A DNA stretch of 57,603 nucleotides from a virus (IMGVR_UViG_3300041809_000885:1-57603), one strand, 5' to 3'; shown: positions 6,853 through 13,058, counted from the first letter of the stretch. Program-made: numbers and translations. The notes: generated from the letters alone by a model not told the origin.

Positions 6853-7841
6853 AGGTCGCGGCAATTACAACCACGATACATATTCCGGCGGTTCTGAAAC
6901 TGCTTCGTCAGTGTTCGGCTGACGTCGGGATGTTCGTGGCAATCGAGCAAGTACCTGACAAGAAGTTATTGGATTGTTGCCATGAGGCCGGCGCGACGGT
7001 TGTGTTAGGCGAGAACTGGAAGTGTTCCGAGGCGATTGGCTGGCACACCTTGAGTCGCAGGAATATCGCTTTCCTTGAAGCCTTGAAGCAAGGAGCGGAA
7101 ATAATATACTCGTTCGATACCGACAACATTCCGATGTCGCTGACGCACTTCGATTCGATTGAGAAAATTCTGACCGAGCGCTTCGACGGAATTCTCGCTT
7201 CCAGCAAGACCGGGTGGTTCGATGCCGGCCAGATGTTGAACCCTTGGGCCCGACACCGCGGCATTCCCTACAGCAACATCCCGGCGCACCACTACGATAT
7301 AGCGACCAACTTCCGCGCCGGTATCGCGGCAGGCCTCGTGATCGGCAATCCGGATATTGACGCCACGCTGCGGATGGAGAAGGCGCCGGAGATTCATACT
7401 ATCTCGAAGCTTGGCGAGATGGGGGTGCTGGTCGACGTCAACACCCACACCGTTTTCAATACGCAAAACGTAGCTATGTTGCGCGAACTGGTGCCTGCGT
7501 GGTTTCTCATGCCGCATGTCGGCAGGTACGACGATCTGTACGCCAGCTTAATCGTGCAGCGTGTGGCGCGCGAGCGCGGCCTGCATGTCCATTTCGGCCA
7601 GCCGCTGGTGTGGCAACAGCGTCATCAGCACGACCTGATCGTTGACCTCAAGGCCGAGATTGACGGCATGTCCCATATCAAGGACATAGCCGAGCTACTG
7701 GATCACATCCCGCTGCCCGGCAAGAGTGTCCTCGAGGATACGCGGATCATCTACACGACGCTGGAACACTGCGCGTGGCTGCCGGACGAGGCGATCTACG
7801 CGGCGCATAAATGGCTGGATGACGTAGAGGAGGTGATATGA
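6849..7841 (+). CDS. GT-A fold glycosyltransferase-like protein (STELLO/DUF288-like)
   Basis: This 330-residue protein has a Rossmann-like start (KVAAITTTIHIPAVLKLL), a WHTLSRRNIAFLEAL segment, and the metal-binding DTDN motif in IIYSFDTDNIP near residues 90-100. These features are typical of the STELLO/reversibly glycosylated protein group of GT-A enzymes, which use a nucleotide sugar. The remainder is rich in His and Trp. It is coupled to its neighbours by ATGA overlaps, in a region with three other sugar enzymes (8849, 10644, 13459). A role in modifying virion proteins, host surface glycans or DNA is inference. The family call is from motif recall. Confidence 0.65.
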   Translation: MKVAAITTTIHIPAVLKLLRQCSADVGMFVAIEQVPDKKLLDCCHEAGATVVLGENWKCSEAIGWHTLSRRNIAFLEALKQGAEIIYSFDTDNIPMSLTHFDSIEKILTERFDGILASSKTGWFDAGQMLNPWARHRGIPYSNIPAHHYDIATNFRAGIAAGLVIGNPDIDATLRMEKAPEIHTISKLGEMGVLVDVNTHTVFNTQNVAMLRELVPAWFLMPHVGRYDDLYASLIVQRVARERGLHVHFGQPLVWQQRHQHDLIVDLKAEIDGMSHIKDIAELLDHIPLPGKSVLEDTRIIYTTLEHCAWLPDEAIYAAHKWLDDVEEVI

Positions 7842-7880
7842 AAGTGATTATCAACAAGCAGGAAGGATACTCACCGTACC

Positions 7881-7888
7881 TTTATATT
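7881..7888. repeat. Target-site duplication of element 1 (left copy)
   Basis: TTTATATT directly abuts the left end of element 1. An identical copy at 8728-8735 directly abuts the right end. Perfect 8-bp direct repeats at both boundaries are the classic mark of staggered-cut transposition. Confidence 0.9.
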
Positions 7889-7937
7889 CATGCTTATCCG
7901 GTTAACGCACACAAACGCTGAGACCTACTAGATATTG

Positions 7938-8129
7938 ATGGGACAATCGATGACGGAATTAGAGGCGCTGACCAATGAAATCGACGCGCACGTTTCTCGC
8001 AATTCCGATCTGGAACTTTCAACACTCCACTTGAGCGCACGAACCGCACAAGCGTGGTGGCGGCTTCTCAAGGCTCTGCGGCCGGACAAATGTCGCGTAA
8101 ATGCGACGGATCAGTCTGAAACAGGCTAA
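7938..8129 (+). CDS. Element 1 cargo: hypothetical helical protein (63 aa)
   Basis: The likely start is ATG 7938 just inside the conserved left end of the element; ATG 7950 (MTELEALTNEID...) is an alternative. No strong Shine-Dalgarno is visible, so coupling to the upstream reading frame that stops at 7921 is likely. The product is mostly helical and hydrophilic with a WW pair (AQAWWRLLKALRPDK). No family is recognised. Position in a mobile cassette with an Acb2-like gene suggests an accessory or counter-defence role, as inference only. Confidence 0.55.
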   Translation: MGQSMTELEALTNEIDAHVSRNSDLELSTLHLSARTAQAWWRLLKALRPDKCRVNATDQSETG

Positions 8130-8144
8130 ATATAGGAGAGACAA

Positions 8145-8486
8145 ATGAAACTCTACATTTCGGAACCGGAACTGAAAGAAGGCTGTCACGTCGGACAAAT
8201 CCTTGTCCACGACGATGAAAACAATGACATTGCCTATTTCTTACACAATGAAGATGCGACTGTCCCACAGAGCTACGAAACCGCGCTTGCGATGGCGCGA
8301 GCACTGGTTAACGCAGAGGAATACCGTACCGCCCTGATACACATTAGAGGCTCATATACCCCAGATCAACCGGCAGATAGCGCGGCTGATGAGGTTTCGT
8401 GGGTGATGCGACACGTCGGAGGCTTACGCAGGGTAGCAGCTAACGCCTTAGATCATCTGGGCATTCTTGGAGAGAAAAATGTCTGA
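8145..8486 (+). CDS. Element 1 cargo: hypothetical protein (113 aa)
   Basis: ATG 8145 follows TAGGAGAGACAA. The product begins with strand-rich sequence (MKLYISEPELKEGCHVGQIL, then VHDDENNDIAYFLH), followed by a helical middle (ETALAMARALVNAEEYRTAL) and a C-terminal helix pair. It is not recognised. Its stop overlaps the start of the next gene, giving a coupled pair with the Acb2-like gene. An accessory phage function is inferred from context. Confidence 0.65.
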   Translation: MKLYISEPELKEGCHVGQILVHDDENNDIAYFLHNEDATVPQSYETALAMARALVNAEEYRTALIHIRGSYTPDQPADSAADEVSWVMRHVGGLRRVAANALDHLGILGEKNV

Positions 8487-8673
8487 AGCAATGCAATTCA
8501 CTAACGGACTCACGCATGCCCAAGACGACGAGATTGACAATGTGATGATCGATCTTGTTCGGATCGTTGACAGGATCGACCGCATTGGCATTCATCGCAA
8601 CTATTCGCTCGCCATTACCAAGATCGAAGAAGCAAAGCATTGGTTGCGCGACCGCAAGCACAAACCCGCGTAA
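8479..8673 (+). CDS. Element 1 cargo: Acb2/Tad1 hairpin-like protein (64 aa)
   Basis: ATG 8479 follows TTGGAGAGAAAA and overlaps the preceding gene by 8 bp. The product is two long helices. The C-terminal segment NYSLAITKIEEAKHWLRDRK fits the R-x-x-SLA-x-TK-(I/L)-EEA-x-x-W pattern I recall for the Acb2/Tad1 hairpin domain. Proteins of that group form small oligomers that sequester cyclic oligonucleotides or gcADPR signals and so block CBASS or Thoeris. Length and helix-hairpin-helix layout also fit. The identification rests on motif recall, without an alignment. If correct, this is a counter-defence gene on a mobile cassette. Confidence 0.6.
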   Translation: MSEAMQFTNGLTHAQDDEIDNVMIDLVRIVDRIDRIGIHRNYSLAITKIEEAKHWLRDRKHKPA

Positions 8674-8712
8674 ATGCGCACCATGACCACAACATCTAGG
8701 GCCGTGTGTCTA

Positions 8713-8735
8713 AACCGGATAAGCATGTTTATATT
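8713..8735. repeat. Right inverted repeat and target-site duplication of element 1
   Basis: AACCGGATAAGCATG (8713-8727) is the exact reverse complement of the left end of the element and is followed by TTTATATT (8728-8735). The 47 bp ending here (8682-8728) match 12310-12356 at 41 positions, so the right ends of the two elements are homologous beyond the terminal repeat. Confidence 0.9.
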
Positions 8736-8848
8736 AAAGCCGATGAGACGGCCTGTGAAACCACGACGATCGACGAATGGATAAGGATGCTACAATTAGG
8801 AAAGCATTGGCTGCGCCAACAGAAAAACAAAGCATCGAAGGCCAAGGC

Positions 8849-10087
8849 ATGAAATTAGCAATTGCGTTTTCGACAAAAGACCAGGTCGCGCTGACCGAGC
8901 AGACTTTGCCGTGGATTATGCACAGCGATATTGACATGTACTGGTGTGACGGTTCGCGCACCAACGAAGGCATTCGATTTTTCGAAGAGCATTCGGAAGG
9001 CGCATGCATGCTGAGCAGCGCCCGGGTCTTCGGCGGCGCTGATGCAGCAATCGCGTGGAAGCTGACCGTGTTGCTGAAGTCCAACGCGACCCACATCGGC
9101 CTTCTAGAAAACGACGTCCTGCTTGACGAGAACTGGTTTTCCCCCACTACGGAACTGTTCAAGCGGGGAGAGCAGGATGGCTTGCACGTTGGAGCAGTGT
9201 CTGCAAGATCTTACGTCGATCGTGTCCTCATCCAGCGAGACGGCTATGCCGTCATGCATAACATCGGAGCAGGATTTATTATTTTCACGCGAGAAGCCGC
9301 AGAGATCGTTCTTCGTTCATTCAGGACTTCATGGTGGCCAACCACTCGCTTGTTGTGGGCTCAGTTGTCCGGGATTGACGTAGCAACATACGCCGCCTTC
9401 CGCGGCAACGAGCAGTGGGTCACCACCGACTGGGGATGGGAAGCCCAGCTCGCCAGCCACGGGTTAGCCAGCCTCGCGCTCACTCCGGCGAAGTGTACCA
9501 TGATCGGGCAGAACCCGCCGCTGGAGCAGCAGGGATTGCAGTTGGTGACGTGGCCAGCTGTTTCCGGGCTAGTGAATGACCAGGCATTCGAGATCTATCG
9601 AGGTAACCTCCTCGCCATCCGCGCCGGCGTGCATCAGATCGAACTCCCTGGCACCATCCACCGCGACGGCGCCGGCATGCTTTTCTTTCCCCACCAACTC
9701 GGCAATCTGGCGGGAGGTGAACCGTGGCAAGGCAATTTGGAATTACAGTGGGCTCAGGGCTGGGGCCCGTTCGCCTACCGCGCTGGTCCGGGCGGCGCAT
9801 CTCTTTCCGTGCGCATCTCTGGTTCCTGCTCCTTCCACGTCACTGGCGGGTCCACCGGCGCGAGGGCGGCTATAACGGACACCCGCTCTGGATTTAACTT
9901 CGCGCCGGACTTGCCCGGCGGCATGCAGCAGTTCGGCTCGATCAACGTGCCGGGCGGCCCGGTGCCGCGGCAAATCACGATGGAGATGAGCGAAGGCGCG
10001 GTGTTCTACGGGCTGCAGACCGCCGACCCGCAGCTGCTTGATACGACGTTCAGGTTCGACTGGTCGCAATTGCCGGAGGCGAAGTGA
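8849..10087 (+). CDS. GT2-like glycosyltransferase with C-terminal beta domain
   Basis: ATG 8849 is preferred over an in-frame ATG at 8777. In the sequence before insertion of element 1, 8849 overlapped the stop of the upstream gene (ATGA), and homologous-looking sequence starts here (MKLAIAFSTKDQVALTEQTL). The N-terminal 230 residues resemble a GT-A glycosyltransferase with the acidic metal motif LLENDVLLDENW and later TTDWGWE. The last 180 residues look like a beta-sandwich, possibly carbohydrate-binding, with many Gly and aromatic residues. The product is 412 residues. With the neighbouring epimerase it probably belongs to a glycan-modification pathway. Confidence 0.6.
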   Translation: MKLAIAFSTKDQVALTEQTLPWIMHSDIDMYWCDGSRTNEGIRFFEEHSEGACMLSSARVFGGADAAIAWKLTVLLKSNATHIGLLENDVLLDENWFSPTTELFKRGEQDGLHVGAVSARSYVDRVLIQRDGYAVMHNIGAGFIIFTREAAEIVLRSFRTSWWPTTRLLWAQLSGIDVATYAAFRGNEQWVTTDWGWEAQLASHGLASLALTPAKCTMIGQNPPLEQQGLQLVTWPAVSGLVNDQAFEIYRGNLLAIRAGVHQIELPGTIHRDGAGMLFFPHQLGNLAGGEPWQGNLELQWAQGWGPFAYRAGPGGASLSVRISGSCSFHVTGGSTGARAAITDTRSGFNFAPDLPGGMQQFGSINVPGGPVPRQITMEMSEGAVFYGLQTADPQLLDTTFRFDWSQLPEAK

Positions 10088-10647
10088 TGCCTGCGCGAAA
10101 TCAAGTTTTGCGTATGTGTCGTTGCCAAGAAGAGTTTTCAGTTATGGCCTATATGGGGGCTAAGCGAAAATTTTGTTCGCCGCAATGCCATATTGATTTT
10201 GTGCGAGCCACAAATAAAACTCCCGAGCAGAAATTTGAGGAGTACCACATTCCCGAACCTAATTCGGGATGCTGGCTTTGGTTAGGTTGCCTTGACGGAA
10301 AGAACTACGGAATTCTTAGTATCAAGCGACGAAATGTTTACGCGCACAGGTTTTCTTATGTTAAAAAATATGGAGCGATCCCGGCCGGCAAGGAATTAGA
10401 TCACACTTGTCGAAATACATTTTGCTGTAATCCCGATCACGTTGAACCGGTTACGCACAGAGAAAACATGTTGCGAAGTCCGGTCACACTGGGAGGACGG
10501 CACGCTAGGAGAACACATTGTCCGCAAGGGCACGCATATGATTTGGAAAACACTTACGTCGGACCGTTGGGGACTCGTTTTTGTAAGGCGTGTCGTAGAG
10601 CTTTTGATAAGAAGCGCGGGCATGCCAGAGGAGTTAGGGCATCATGA
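10084..10647 (+). CDS. HNH homing-type endonuclease
   Basis: The start is GTG 10084 or ATG 10087, overlapping the previous stop. The 187-residue product has an N-terminal zinc-type Cys cluster (MCRCQEEF...FCSPQC). The HNH core follows, with IPEPNSGCWLWLG, AHRFSYVKKYG, LDHTCRNTFCCNPDHVEPVT, then a C-terminal Cys/His region (HCPQGHAYDLENTY...FCKACRRAF). It is clearly related to the HNH proteins at 5948 and 52334. The gene and the first 600 bp of the following epimerase are AT-rich compared with their surroundings, which suggests acquisition by homing with co-conversion of the flank. Confidence 0.85.
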   Translation: MMPARNQVLRMCRCQEEFSVMAYMGAKRKFCSPQCHIDFVRATNKTPEQKFEEYHIPEPNSGCWLWLGCLDGKNYGILSIKRRNVYAHRFSYVKKYGAIPAGKELDHTCRNTFCCNPDHVEPVTHRENMLRSPVTLGGRHARRTHCPQGHAYDLENTYVGPLGTRFCKACRRAFDKKRGHARGVRAS

Positions 10648-11642
10648 AAAAAGCTTTGGTGTTGGGCGCGAGCGGGTTCCTCGGCCAACATATGGAATAC
10701 CGACTCAAACAGGAAGGGTATTATGTCGTTTCTGTTGCGCGGCACGCGGCGCCTTATCGCAAAAGCGTAGCGAATGAAAATAACATACTTGATCTTACCA
10801 ACGAGGCTGGTTTTCACCACCATTTTTATCGGCATCACTTTGATGTGGTGTTTCAACTGGCCGGAAATGTTGGGGGTTTGGGACATATTGCTGTCGGCGA
10901 TAACGACGCAGCAATTTTAACAGATTCGCTGAAGATCAATCTTTATACGCTCGAAGCAATTCGGAAAACGCAGGCCGCTGAAAAAATACTGTTCGCGTCT
11001 TCTCAATGCGTCTACCCGGATACAATCGAAATTGATCCGTTTGCCTCCGAGCGAATCCCGGATCACGTTACGCAGCCGTGGCGCGAAAAAGATGCCAGCT
11101 TCGATACGTTTGCCTTCGGGCAAGAAAAATTATTTGCGGAAAAATTATACGACGCTTACGCTCGTAACTACGGGATCAACCCGAGAGTGGCGAGGTGCGG
11201 AAACACATACGGCCCGTTTTGTACTTACGACGGTGATCGTGCTAAATCTGTTGCCGCGATCTGTCGAAAAGTTGCAACAGCTCCTTATGCAGGAACGGTC
11301 AAGCTCTGGGGGGACGGAACGGCCCGACGATCTTTCACCTACGTCGACGACGTGATCGACGGCATGCTCAAGCTGATGGAATCCGACTATCAGGGTCCGG
11401 TCAATATCGCGCACGGCGAGACGGTGTCGATCGTCGAGCTGTTCGAGGCGGTGTGCCGGGCCGCCAACAAGGTACTGGCATGGGAGAGCGAGCCGGGGCC
11501 GGTCGGCGTGCATTCCCGCGGTTCCGACAACACCCTGGCGAGGAAGGTATTGGGCTGGGAGCCGAAGACGTCGCTGATGATGGGGTTGGCGGTCACGTAT
11601 CCGTGGGTGCGGGATCAGGCCTTGACGAAGGCCCCGGCTTGA
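10644..11642 (+). CDS. NAD-dependent nucleotide-sugar epimerase/dehydratase (extended SDR)
   Basis: The 332-residue protein begins with the Rossmann motif GASGFLG (residues 8-14) and continues with QLAGNVGG, SSQCVYP, ARCGNTYGPF and RSFTYVDDVIDG. This is the extended SDR layout, closest in feel to GDP-mannose epimerase or GDP-fucose synthase. At the catalytic YxxxK position the sequence is FGQEK: Phe158 replaces Tyr, while Lys162 remains. Activity may thus be altered or lost. Codon use shifts from AT-rich to GC-rich near 11290, so the gene looks mosaic. ATGA overlap joins it to the HNH gene; a hairpin starts at the base after its stop. Confidence 0.85.
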   Translation: MKKALVLGASGFLGQHMEYRLKQEGYYVVSVARHAAPYRKSVANENNILDLTNEAGFHHHFYRHHFDVVFQLAGNVGGLGHIAVGDNDAAILTDSLKINLYTLEAIRKTQAAEKILFASSQCVYPDTIEIDPFASERIPDHVTQPWREKDASFDTFAFGQEKLFAEKLYDAYARNYGINPRVARCGNTYGPFCTYDGDRAKSVAAICRKVATAPYAGTVKLWGDGTARRSFTYVDDVIDGMLKLMESDYQGPVNIAHGETVSIVELFEAVCRAANKVLAWESEPGPVGVHSRGSDNTLARKVLGWEPKTSLMMGLAVTYPWVRDQALTKAPA

Positions 11643-11662
11643 GGTAGTCATTGTTGACTACC
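11643..11662. other. Stop-adjacent hairpin GGTAGTCA-TTGT-TGACTACC
   Basis: Eight-bp perfect arms (11643-11650 and 11655-11662) with a four-base loop begin right after the epimerase stop codon. The same arms follow the stop at 5664. It is followed by AAGGGAGGATAAC, which was the ribosome site of the recombinase gene before element 2 inserted. Confidence 0.5.
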
Positions 11663-11671
11663 AAGGGAGGA

Positions 11672-11679
11672 TAACATGA
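11672..11679. repeat. Target-site duplication of element 2 (left copy)
   Basis: TAACATGA abuts the left end of element 2; the same eight bases at 12356-12363 abut the right end and contain the start codon of the recombinase gene. The left copy now gives the old ribosome site a 17-codon frame (ATG 11676 to TGA 11729) that ends over the first cargo start codon. Confidence 0.9.
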
Positions 11680-11722
11680 CATGCTTATCCGCTTCCCACA
11701 CACAAACGCTGAGGGATACTAG

Positions 11723-12058
11723 ATGTTGAGGACGCGCGATAAGTTGGCCGCTGAGCTTCGAAATGTTGCCGCAATAGCCTCGCCAGACAATGCGGCGAAG
11801 TATGAGGCTTTCGCGAAGCGCGCCGAGACTGGCGAGTTTGACGACTATGCCGACACCTATGTGTGTCCGATCACCCAACTCTATTCGGAACTAACCGCCG
11901 CAGGCTTCACCAAGTTTGCCGCCCGCGTCGCCAATGGCGAATTCGACGCCACGAAGGAAGAAAGTGACGAATGGGCACGTAGCCCATCTGGGCAGGACGC
12001 CGCAAAGCGGCTTCCGCCGGAAATGCGTGAGATTTTAGGTCTGAAACTCAACAACTAG
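11723..12058 (+). CDS. Element 2 cargo: hypothetical acidic protein (111 aa)
   Basis: ATG 11723 lies inside the conserved left end of the element, behind GAGGGATACTAG, and a 17-codon frame from the old host ribosome site ends on top of it, so translation is probably coupled. The product is helical and acidic (ETGEFDDYADTY, TKEESDEWARS) with a WARSPSGQDAAKRL segment. No family is recognised. Context suggests an accessory function, possibly counter-defence. Confidence 0.65.
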   Translation: MLRTRDKLAAELRNVAAIASPDNAAKYEAFAKRAETGEFDDYADTYVCPITQLYSELTAAGFTKFAARVANGEFDATKEESDEWARSPSGQDAAKRLPPEMREILGLKLNN

Positions 12059-12068
12059 GAGAACCGCA

Positions 12069-12308
12069 ATGCCGCCAGAGATCAGCAACCAAGAAGCTAT
12101 CGAAATGATGAACCGCTGCAAGCAAGAGATTGTTGGCATGCGGGCAACAATCGATCGCCTCAAGCCCAAAGCCGATGCTTATGACAATCTCGTTGTCGTG
12201 CTGGGCCTGCTGCCACGCCCGAGCATCGGCATGGGCGAGGATTTGGTTTGGATCATCGACAAGCGAATTCGGGAATTGACACCGAAACCGGCTGAGAACG
12301 CGGATTGA
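12069..12308 (+). CDS. Element 2 cargo: hypothetical coiled-coil protein (79 aa)
   Basis: ATG 12069 follows TAGGAGAACCGCA. The first 40 residues form one long amphipathic helix (NQEAIEMMNRCKQEIVGMRA), followed by a short loop and a second helix (DLVWIIDKRIREL). No family is recognised. The stop lies two bases from the conserved right end of the element. Confidence 0.6.
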   Translation: MPPEISNQEAIEMMNRCKQEIVGMRATIDRLKPKADAYDNLVVVLGLLPRPSIGMGEDLVWIIDKRIRELTPKPAENAD

Positions 12309-12340
12309 ACATGACCACAACACTTAGGGCTGTATGTCCT

Positions 12341-12363
12341 AACCGGATAAGCATGTAACATGA
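12341..12363. repeat. Right inverted repeat and target-site duplication of element 2
   Basis: AACCGGATAAGCATG (12341-12355) is followed by TAACATGA (12356-12363). The duplication overlaps the recombinase start ATG at 12360. Sequence 12310-12356 is homologous to 8682-8728. Confidence 0.9.
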
Positions 12364-13058
12364 TTCTTGCCTACATCAGGGTTTCGACAGCGGATCAGGC
12401 CAATGCCGATCGCTCCAGTTTGCAAACCCAAACCGATATCGTGGAAGGTTTCGCTCGAGCCCGAGGCGTTGATCGATTCGGCATTCAGATTTACACCGAT
12501 GCCGGGGTGTCCGGCGGGGTCAAGCTGTCCAAGCGAGAGGCCGGCGCCCAGCTGCTGGCCGACATGGCGCCGGGCGACACCGTGATCGCCAGCAAGCTCG
12601 ATCGCATGTTCCGTTCCGCCGTTGATGCGCTCAACATGCTGGAGTTGTTCAAGGAGAAGGGTGTCCATCTCGTGCTTTACGATATGGGGCACGAACCCGT
12701 GACCGGCGAGGGCACTGCCCGCCTACTGTTCACCATCCTGGCCGCTGTCGCCGACATGGAACGGATCAGGATCCGCGAGCGCACCGCCGAGGGCCGCAAG
12801 GCCAAGAAGGCGAGGGGCGGGCCGGTCGGCAATGTCCCGTTCGGTTTCCGGAAGGTCGGGGAGGGGCGAGCAGCCTGCTTGGTTCCCAATGACAGCGAAG
12901 TACAGGCAGCTGCGAAGATGCGGCAGCTATACCAGAAAGAAGGCCTGATCGGCACGTCGCGTAAGCTGGCCGAGGCCGGAATATTGTCGCGGGCCGGCAA
13001 ACCCTTCACGCCGATGGCGATCCGGCGAGTGGTGTTGGAGGCCGTCAATGCAGTTTAA
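12360..13058 (+). CDS. Serine recombinase, resolvase/invertase type
   Basis: The 232-residue protein has the N-terminal catalytic domain of small serine recombinases: YIRVSTADQ with Ser9 as nucleophile and Arg7, DAGVSGG, and KLDRMFRS with the conserved arginines. A long helix (MERIRIRERTAEGRKAKKAR) and a C-terminal helix-turn-helix (TSRKLAEAGILSRAGKPFT) follow. The size fits resolvases or invertases, not large phage integrases. It might resolve genome multimers or invert a segment; no matching crossover sites are obvious. Its ribosome site was displaced by element 2, so expression may now be reduced. It is unlikely to move the elements, since 8-bp duplications do not fit serine recombination. 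Confidence 0.9.
   Translation: MILAYIRVSTADQANADRSSLQTQTDIVEGFARARGVDRFGIQIYTDAGVSGGVKLSKREAGAQLLADMAPGDTVIASKLDRMFRSAVDALNMLELFKEKGVHLVLYDMGHEPVTGEGTARLLFTILAAVADMERIRIRERTAEGRKAKKARGGPVGNVPFGFRKVGEGRAACLVPNDSEVQAAAKMRQLYQKEGLIGTSRKLAEAGILSRAGKPFTPMAIRRVVLEAVNAV

Follow-up and report, generated by a model that had tools for sequence, protein, structure and literature searches.

Two cargo segments in a phage contig

We analyzed a window of 57,603 nucleotides, the whole of a viral record (IMGVR_UViG_3300041809_000885, one strand, 5' to 3'), and focused on two segments between positions 7,881 and 12,363. Both carry small cargo ORFs between terminal inverted repeats and are flanked by 8-bp target duplications. 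The features of element 1 are:

7838..8852, plus strand: phage gene split by element 1; 7838-7888 and 8736-8852 join to a 55-codon ORF
7881..7888, no strand: left target duplication, TTTATATT, a perfect repeat identical to 8728-8735 (direct reading)
7889..8727, plus strand: element 1, an 839-bp cargo cassette without transposase (direct reading, repeat search; end type common to 32 other elements)
7889..7911, plus strand: left terminal inverted repeat (family consensus CATGCTTATCCGGTTNNCRCMCA)
7890..7931, plus strand: mini-ORF of 13 codons, MLIRLTHTNAETY, stop TAG, opened by the repeat's own ATG (layout kept in 31 of 33 window-type elements)
7938..8129, plus strand: cargo ORF a, 63 aa (ORF reading)
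8145..8486, plus strand: cargo ORF b, 113 aa (homologue, 74%, in phage contig L302)
8479..8673, plus strand: cargo ORF c, 64 aa, helical (a weak hit, below the cut-off, to the Acb2/Tad1 hairpin domain)
8705..8727, minus strand: right terminal inverted repeat (direct reading, repeat search)
8728..8735, no strand: right target duplication (direct reading)

The features of element 2 are:

11665..11670, plus strand: ribosome-binding site GGGAGG of the resolvase gene, now parted from the gene by element 2 (direct reading)
11672..11679, no strand: left target duplication, TAACATGA, a perfect repeat identical to 12356-12363, which includes the resolvase ATG (direct reading)
11680..12355, plus strand: element 2, a 676-bp cargo cassette without transposase (direct reading, repeat search; empty site in relatives)
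11680..11702, plus strand: left terminal inverted repeat (direct reading, repeat search)
11681..11722, plus strand: mini-ORF of 13 codons, MLIRFPHTNAEGY, with a stop TAG that abuts the cargo ATG at 11723
11723..12058, plus strand: cargo ORF 1, 111 aa (L165 homologue outside such ends)
12051..12058, no strand: site where the homologous L165 operon holds its own 816-bp element; 8-bp duplication ACAACTAG
12069..12308, plus strand: cargo ORF 2, 79 aa (ORF reading)
12333..12355, minus strand: right terminal inverted repeat (direct reading, repeat search)
12356..12363, no strand: right target duplication, which restores the resolvase ATG (direct reading)
12360..13058, plus strand: phage serine resolvase gene, not part of element 2 (PF00239, E 4.5e-32)

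By direct reading, the ends CATGCTTATCCG / CGGATAAGCATG are exact at positions 7889, 8727, 11680 and 12355, and a search of the whole window returned no further exact copy. The left ends of the two elements are 84% identical over 50 nt and the right ends 87% identical over 47 nt, while a repeat search detected no similarity between the interiors. Several positions differ between the inner portions of the ends, and the left end of element 2 is changed at position 13. An earlier note on this DNA had described shared inverted ends, differing perfect 8-bp duplications, conserved borders of about 50 bp and unrelated interiors, all of which we confirmed to the base. The note had also placed both elements near a translation start. 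This holds for both, because element 2 lies between a ribosome-binding site and the resolvase ATG, and element 1 lies at codon 17 of the 55-codon ORF.

The resolvase start codon is the target of element 2, and the arrangement of Shine-Dalgarno (SD) motif and ATG is intact in the relatives L256, L258 and L264. At the same syntenic place as the gene split by element 1, L264 has an uninterrupted ORF with weak similarity to it (32%, E 0.01). A nucleotide search of a phage collection returned zero matches for element 1 and, for element 2, only a partial match of about 69% to Rhodobacter phages over part of cargo ORF 1. The L302 contig that encodes the homologue of ORF b lacks such ends.

ORF c of element 1 was considered as a candidate Acb2-like anti-CBASS protein. 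It scored 19.3 bits against the Acb2/Tad1 hairpin domain in Pfam (cut-off 27), its model was helical with low confidence (pTM 0.37), and searches of the PDB, phages and viral contigs returned no relatives. We did not adopt this assignment and keep it as a lead.

Ends, target site and transposase of the family

Searching IMG/VR with a 14-base segment of the end returned at least 120 stretches, and longer end patterns recovered 79 and 87 stretches from viral contigs. In 257 billion bases of bacterial and archaeal genomes the end patterns gave 22 stretches, a contrast that we take as qualitative because the viral collection has no stated size. The number of distinct complete elements extracted was 124 and later 132; these range from 134 to 2563 bp (median 634). 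All 132 have the same ends of about 23 bp, and nearly all are in uncultured phage contigs. Because the scans used end patterns, conservation at the searched positions of the consensus is partly ascertained, and that of the partner end is not. The evidence is comparative, comes mostly from metagenomic contigs and relies on a simple gene caller.

Perfect 8-bp duplications flanked 116 of the 168 adjacent convergent end pairs in the fetched loci, compared with 0-2 in each of ten shifted controls, and thus the structure in the window is not due to chance. The insertion target is a palindrome, approximately ATN-RWWYRWWY-NAT. The earlier note had proposed one mobile-element family with interchangeable cargo, and had suggested searching for the same 15-bp ends and for transposase genes that carry them. 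Many inverted pairs with 8-bp repeats and differing cargo were found, which supports a single family, and transposase genes bounded by these ends were found as well.

A transposase is present in 26 of the 132 complete elements and absent from the other 106. The 26 are 1.4-2.6 kb long, and their leftover space holds passenger genes. A domain scan found no IS1595 transposase domain in the window record, a linear contig that may be incomplete, so that the same phage may encode a transposase elsewhere. The description of the elements as transposase-less is correct for this record and incorrect for the family as a whole.

Judged from its domains, the transposase of the longer members clearly belongs to the IS1595 family. 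It matched PF12762 (E 8.6e-32, 3.5e-31 and 9.9e-29) and NCBIfam NF033547 (184.7-188.9 bits, cut-off 75), and it has an N-terminal zinc ribbon (PF12760, E 3.6e-9 to 2.7e-13), as do IS1595 subgroups other than IS1016 (PMC8101967). An 8-bp target duplication is also usual for IS1595 (PMC8101967). The terminal GG that is typical of this family was not found, as the ends start with CATG; ends starting with GG occur in a typical member such as ISApl4 (PMC12561309), where they are not stated as defining. The ends, which the earlier note had not recognised from any IS family, can be placed in IS1595 as a subgroup with atypical ends.

In a tree, the transposases cluster tightly as a single long-branched clade (support 100/99). 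Three transposases from bacterial genomes nest among the viral ones and have CATG- or CGTG-type ends, and distant IS1595 relatives from the same searches (L293/L294) have canonical GGGA ends. Both aspartates of the DDE motif are kept; in the alignment, the full-length members have H at the third position and L293-L296 have E. This H is a point against the reading proposed below, although recent movement of the elements argues that the H-bearing clade may be functional. A separate viral-contig scan with the transposase protein identified 21 loci, most with the same ends and 14 with perfect duplications. A close relative occurs in 1 of 289 genomes of the class that includes Rhodoplanes, and the two bacterial loci that we inspected (L252 from Rhodoplanes, and L236) adjoin phage-type genes. 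A tblastn search of cultured phages found no close transposase, and returned only three distant fecal records with at most 29% identity over most of the protein.

Movement, cargo and start-codon layout

We found precise empty sites for element 2 in L256, L264 and L258, each with the resolvase start present. The flanks of the L256 site are 85% identical to the window and L256 has no element, indicating that element 2 inserted after the split from L256. The empty sites of element 2 are what the earlier note had expected of related phages; for element 1, none was found at the nucleotide level in the relatives recovered. An element in L029 has an empty site in L159 with flanks 99% identical. In L165, a homologue of the element 2 cargo operon is not enclosed by such ends, and an 816-bp element interrupts it; because the 8-bp duplication of that element corresponds exactly to window positions 12051-12058, the window represents its empty site.

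Near-identical elements also occur at differing sites (L005/L076, 98%; L144/L276). A 117-kb viral record, G311, contains about 11 copies of a 241-bp version, which are 93-100% identical except for one diverged copy, and several have their own distinct duplications. Several viral records contain both transposase-bearing and cargo-only elements. From the shared ends and this co-residence, we infer that the window cassettes are most likely mobilised in trans by the cognate transposase.

The window-type ends are common to 33 elements, and similarity of interior DNA was detected in only 4 of 528 pairs. On average the longest ORF fills 77% of a non-autonomous element, compared with 43% in shuffled copies. 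We scanned 130 cargo proteins, most of which had no Pfam match. The matches included N6/N4, D12, C5, Dam and MT-A70 DNA methyltransferases, Mom (2), PAPS-reductase-like proteins (5), DHH phosphoesterases (2), NADAR, TnpB, nucleoside deoxyribosyltransferase, MazG-like proteins and others; a protein that matches more than one model is counted under each, so these counts overlap. Homologues of the window cargo are found among normal phage genes that lack the ends, in L302 for element 1 and L165 for element 2, consistent with capture of the cargo from the gene pool of phages.

The ATG of the terminal CATG opens a 13-codon frame in 31 of the 33 window-type elements, with the consensus MLIRLPHTNAETY. 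This frame stops at nt 41-43, and in 17 elements a cargo ATG follows at nt 44. The mini-ORF may be conserved because the transposase binds there and not because of the peptide it encodes. With a crude ORF caller, 27 of 103 insertion sites lay between -25 and +10 relative to a predicted start codon (7.1 expected), a strong enrichment that is partly explained by the AT-rich palindromic target of the transposase. Cargo and flanking gene share a strand by 60 to 29. SD-like motifs were more frequent upstream of the cargo than at the other end (25 vs 12, Fisher 0.03), but the difference from an upstream control was not significant (p 0.11). The mini-ORF layout, the start-site enrichment, the strand bias and the modest SD preference together suggest that a cassette inserted downstream of a phage ribosome-binding site could be translated by coupling, so that its cargo would be expressed immediately.

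Interpretation and relation to known systems

Taken together, we propose that both window segments are non-autonomous mobile insertion cassettes of a phage-enriched IS1595 subgroup that shuffles phage accessory genes, a reading to which we give a probability of roughly 0.87. An IS1595 DDE-type transposase from the longer members would recognise the ends of about 23 bp, excise or copy the cassette, insert it at the AT-rich palindrome and duplicate 8 bp. Because the window record has no such transposase, the enzyme would probably be supplied by some other phage or element within the cell, and transfer between phages could take place during co-infection. The cassettes would in this way capture accessory phage genes, notably those for DNA modification, and shuffle them among phages, and the end's own ATG and mini-ORF could couple cargo translation to the phage gene at the landing site. 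A broader version, in which one transposase lineage serves as a phage-specialised platform that moves a large pool of accessory and anti-restriction cassettes between co-infecting phages, with ends that double as a translation adaptor using the ribosome-binding site of the landing gene, is more tentative, and we consider it possible rather than probable.

We considered whether homologous recombination between cassette ends, driven by phage recombinases, could account for most cargo exchange, with transposition only seeding the sites. Ends of about 50 bp that are common to 33 elements with unrelated interiors are compatible with such exchange, as are composite or multi-ended structures (e.g. 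L140:8906-9794 and L227). However, no pair with the same site and different cargo was found, the same element was seen at different sites, and the duplications differ between elements, which makes this explanation unlikely. The two window elements could also be relics that IS1595 once moved and that are now fixed, with cargo that is useful or harmless. The missing transposase in the window record and the altered inner ends described above would be expected of relics, but the duplications of both elements are perfect and their ends near-intact, and the relatives that precisely lack element 2, with the 85% identical flanks in L256, imply insertion after that split. We therefore view fixed relics as improbable. 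Finally, the serine resolvase at 12360-13058 directly adjoins element 2 and might move the cassettes by site-specific recombination. Serine recombinases are not known to leave 8-bp duplications of variable sequence; moreover, the gene is present in relatives without any element and is not adjacent to element 1. The empty sites with an intact resolvase gene largely refute this explanation, leaving it with hardly any likelihood.

The cassette reading can be compared with several established classes. MITEs, mobile insertion cassettes (MICs) and transporter ISs are recognised classes (PMC3129680), and IS1595 reportedly includes transporter IS (tIS) members that carry passenger genes, such as ISNha5 (Siguier et al. 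2009, as cited in PMC11891212 and PMC3129680). Our elements resemble these in the PF12760 and PF12762 transposase domains, the 8-bp duplications and passengers unrelated to transposition. They differ in having CATG rather than GG ends, H at the third catalytic position and cargo rich in phage DNA-modification genes; in addition, nearly all copies are in phages and most lack a transposase.

The window elements have no transposase and carry passengers between ends shared with transposase-bearing elements, and are in this respect MICs, in which cargo between IS ends is presumed to be activated by a cognate transposase. MIC231 of Bacillus cereus is such a cassette (PMC6542083, PMC3129680), whereas the family here is set in phages, has ends of the IS1595 and not the IS231 type, and shows some hundred different cargos and a built-in start-codon layout. 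The multi-copy 241-bp version in G311 is MITE-like. MITEs are short and without substantial coding capacity, in contrast to the window elements of 839 and 676 bp, in which ORFs of 113 and 111 aa are present and coding fills most of the length. Integron gene cassettes have been reported in phages (PMC9892861) and likewise consist of small exchangeable genes, methyltransferases among them, that are shuffled between phages, but the inverted ends and 8-bp duplications here point to transposition rather than attC/integron-integrase recombination.

Phages are regarded as poor in insertion sequences, and a transposase is considered very rare in a virulent phage (PMC8136500, citing Leclercq and Cordaux 2011). 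The literature searched, outside Siguier 2009, a 2014 review and ISfinder, contained no report of IS1595 cassettes in phages. We found no description of a subgroup with CATG ends, of its strong bias towards uncultured phages, of the cargo-only majority or of the start-codon layout, and these appear to be the new parts. The proposed cassettes would provide a concrete mechanism by which methyltransferase, Mom and other accessory genes jump between unrelated phages, and their 23-bp ends with 8-bp repeats offer a sequence handle for finding new accessory or counter-defence genes. For such accessory genes, the drivers of phage mosaicism would become directly testable.

Catalytic residues and HNH sequences of the transposases

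In an alignment of the CATG-ended clade, the IS1595-family transposases of the longer members, the DDE triad aligned to H, not E, at its third position throughout (residues ~270-280 of L026, one such member). Some IS1595 subgroups have asparagine here. In two transposase genes, L008:1267-2190 and L285:3001-3918, HNH endonuclease sequence either takes the place of the C-terminal part or breaks it up; the Pfam comparison covered L008. More distant IS1595-type transposases (loci L295 and L296) were found in the same viral records, G007 and G008 respectively, as the CATG-ended family.

Cargo, and elements within cargo-type genes

The 64-aa cargo protein encoded at window positions 8479-8673 gave a weak match to the Acb2/Tad1 hairpin domain (E = 0.0013), below the cut-off. 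The protein is a possible anti-CBASS lead. The family element at L062:1253-2408 carries a TnpB-type RNA-guided endonuclease as cargo.

A Myxococcales MAG contig (L240) and a viral contig (L089) both contain a cassette that matches element 2 at 90% identity over 606 bp. The match is the same in both contigs and takes in the left end; the right end was not seen. In addition to the nested case in L165, elements at L230:7866-9056 and L206:3177-5739 each interrupt a gene with a homologue carried as cargo by another element (compared with L164 and L144, respectively).

Multi-copy elements in one viral record

The 117-kb viral record IMGVR_UViG_3300050119_000104 (loci L298-L301) contains ~11 near-identical, MITE-like 241-bp copies of the CATG-ended family, a 2250-bp element and at least two TnpB-type ORFs. 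We conclude that the ~11 copies and the 2250-bp element represent a transposition burst within a phage genome.
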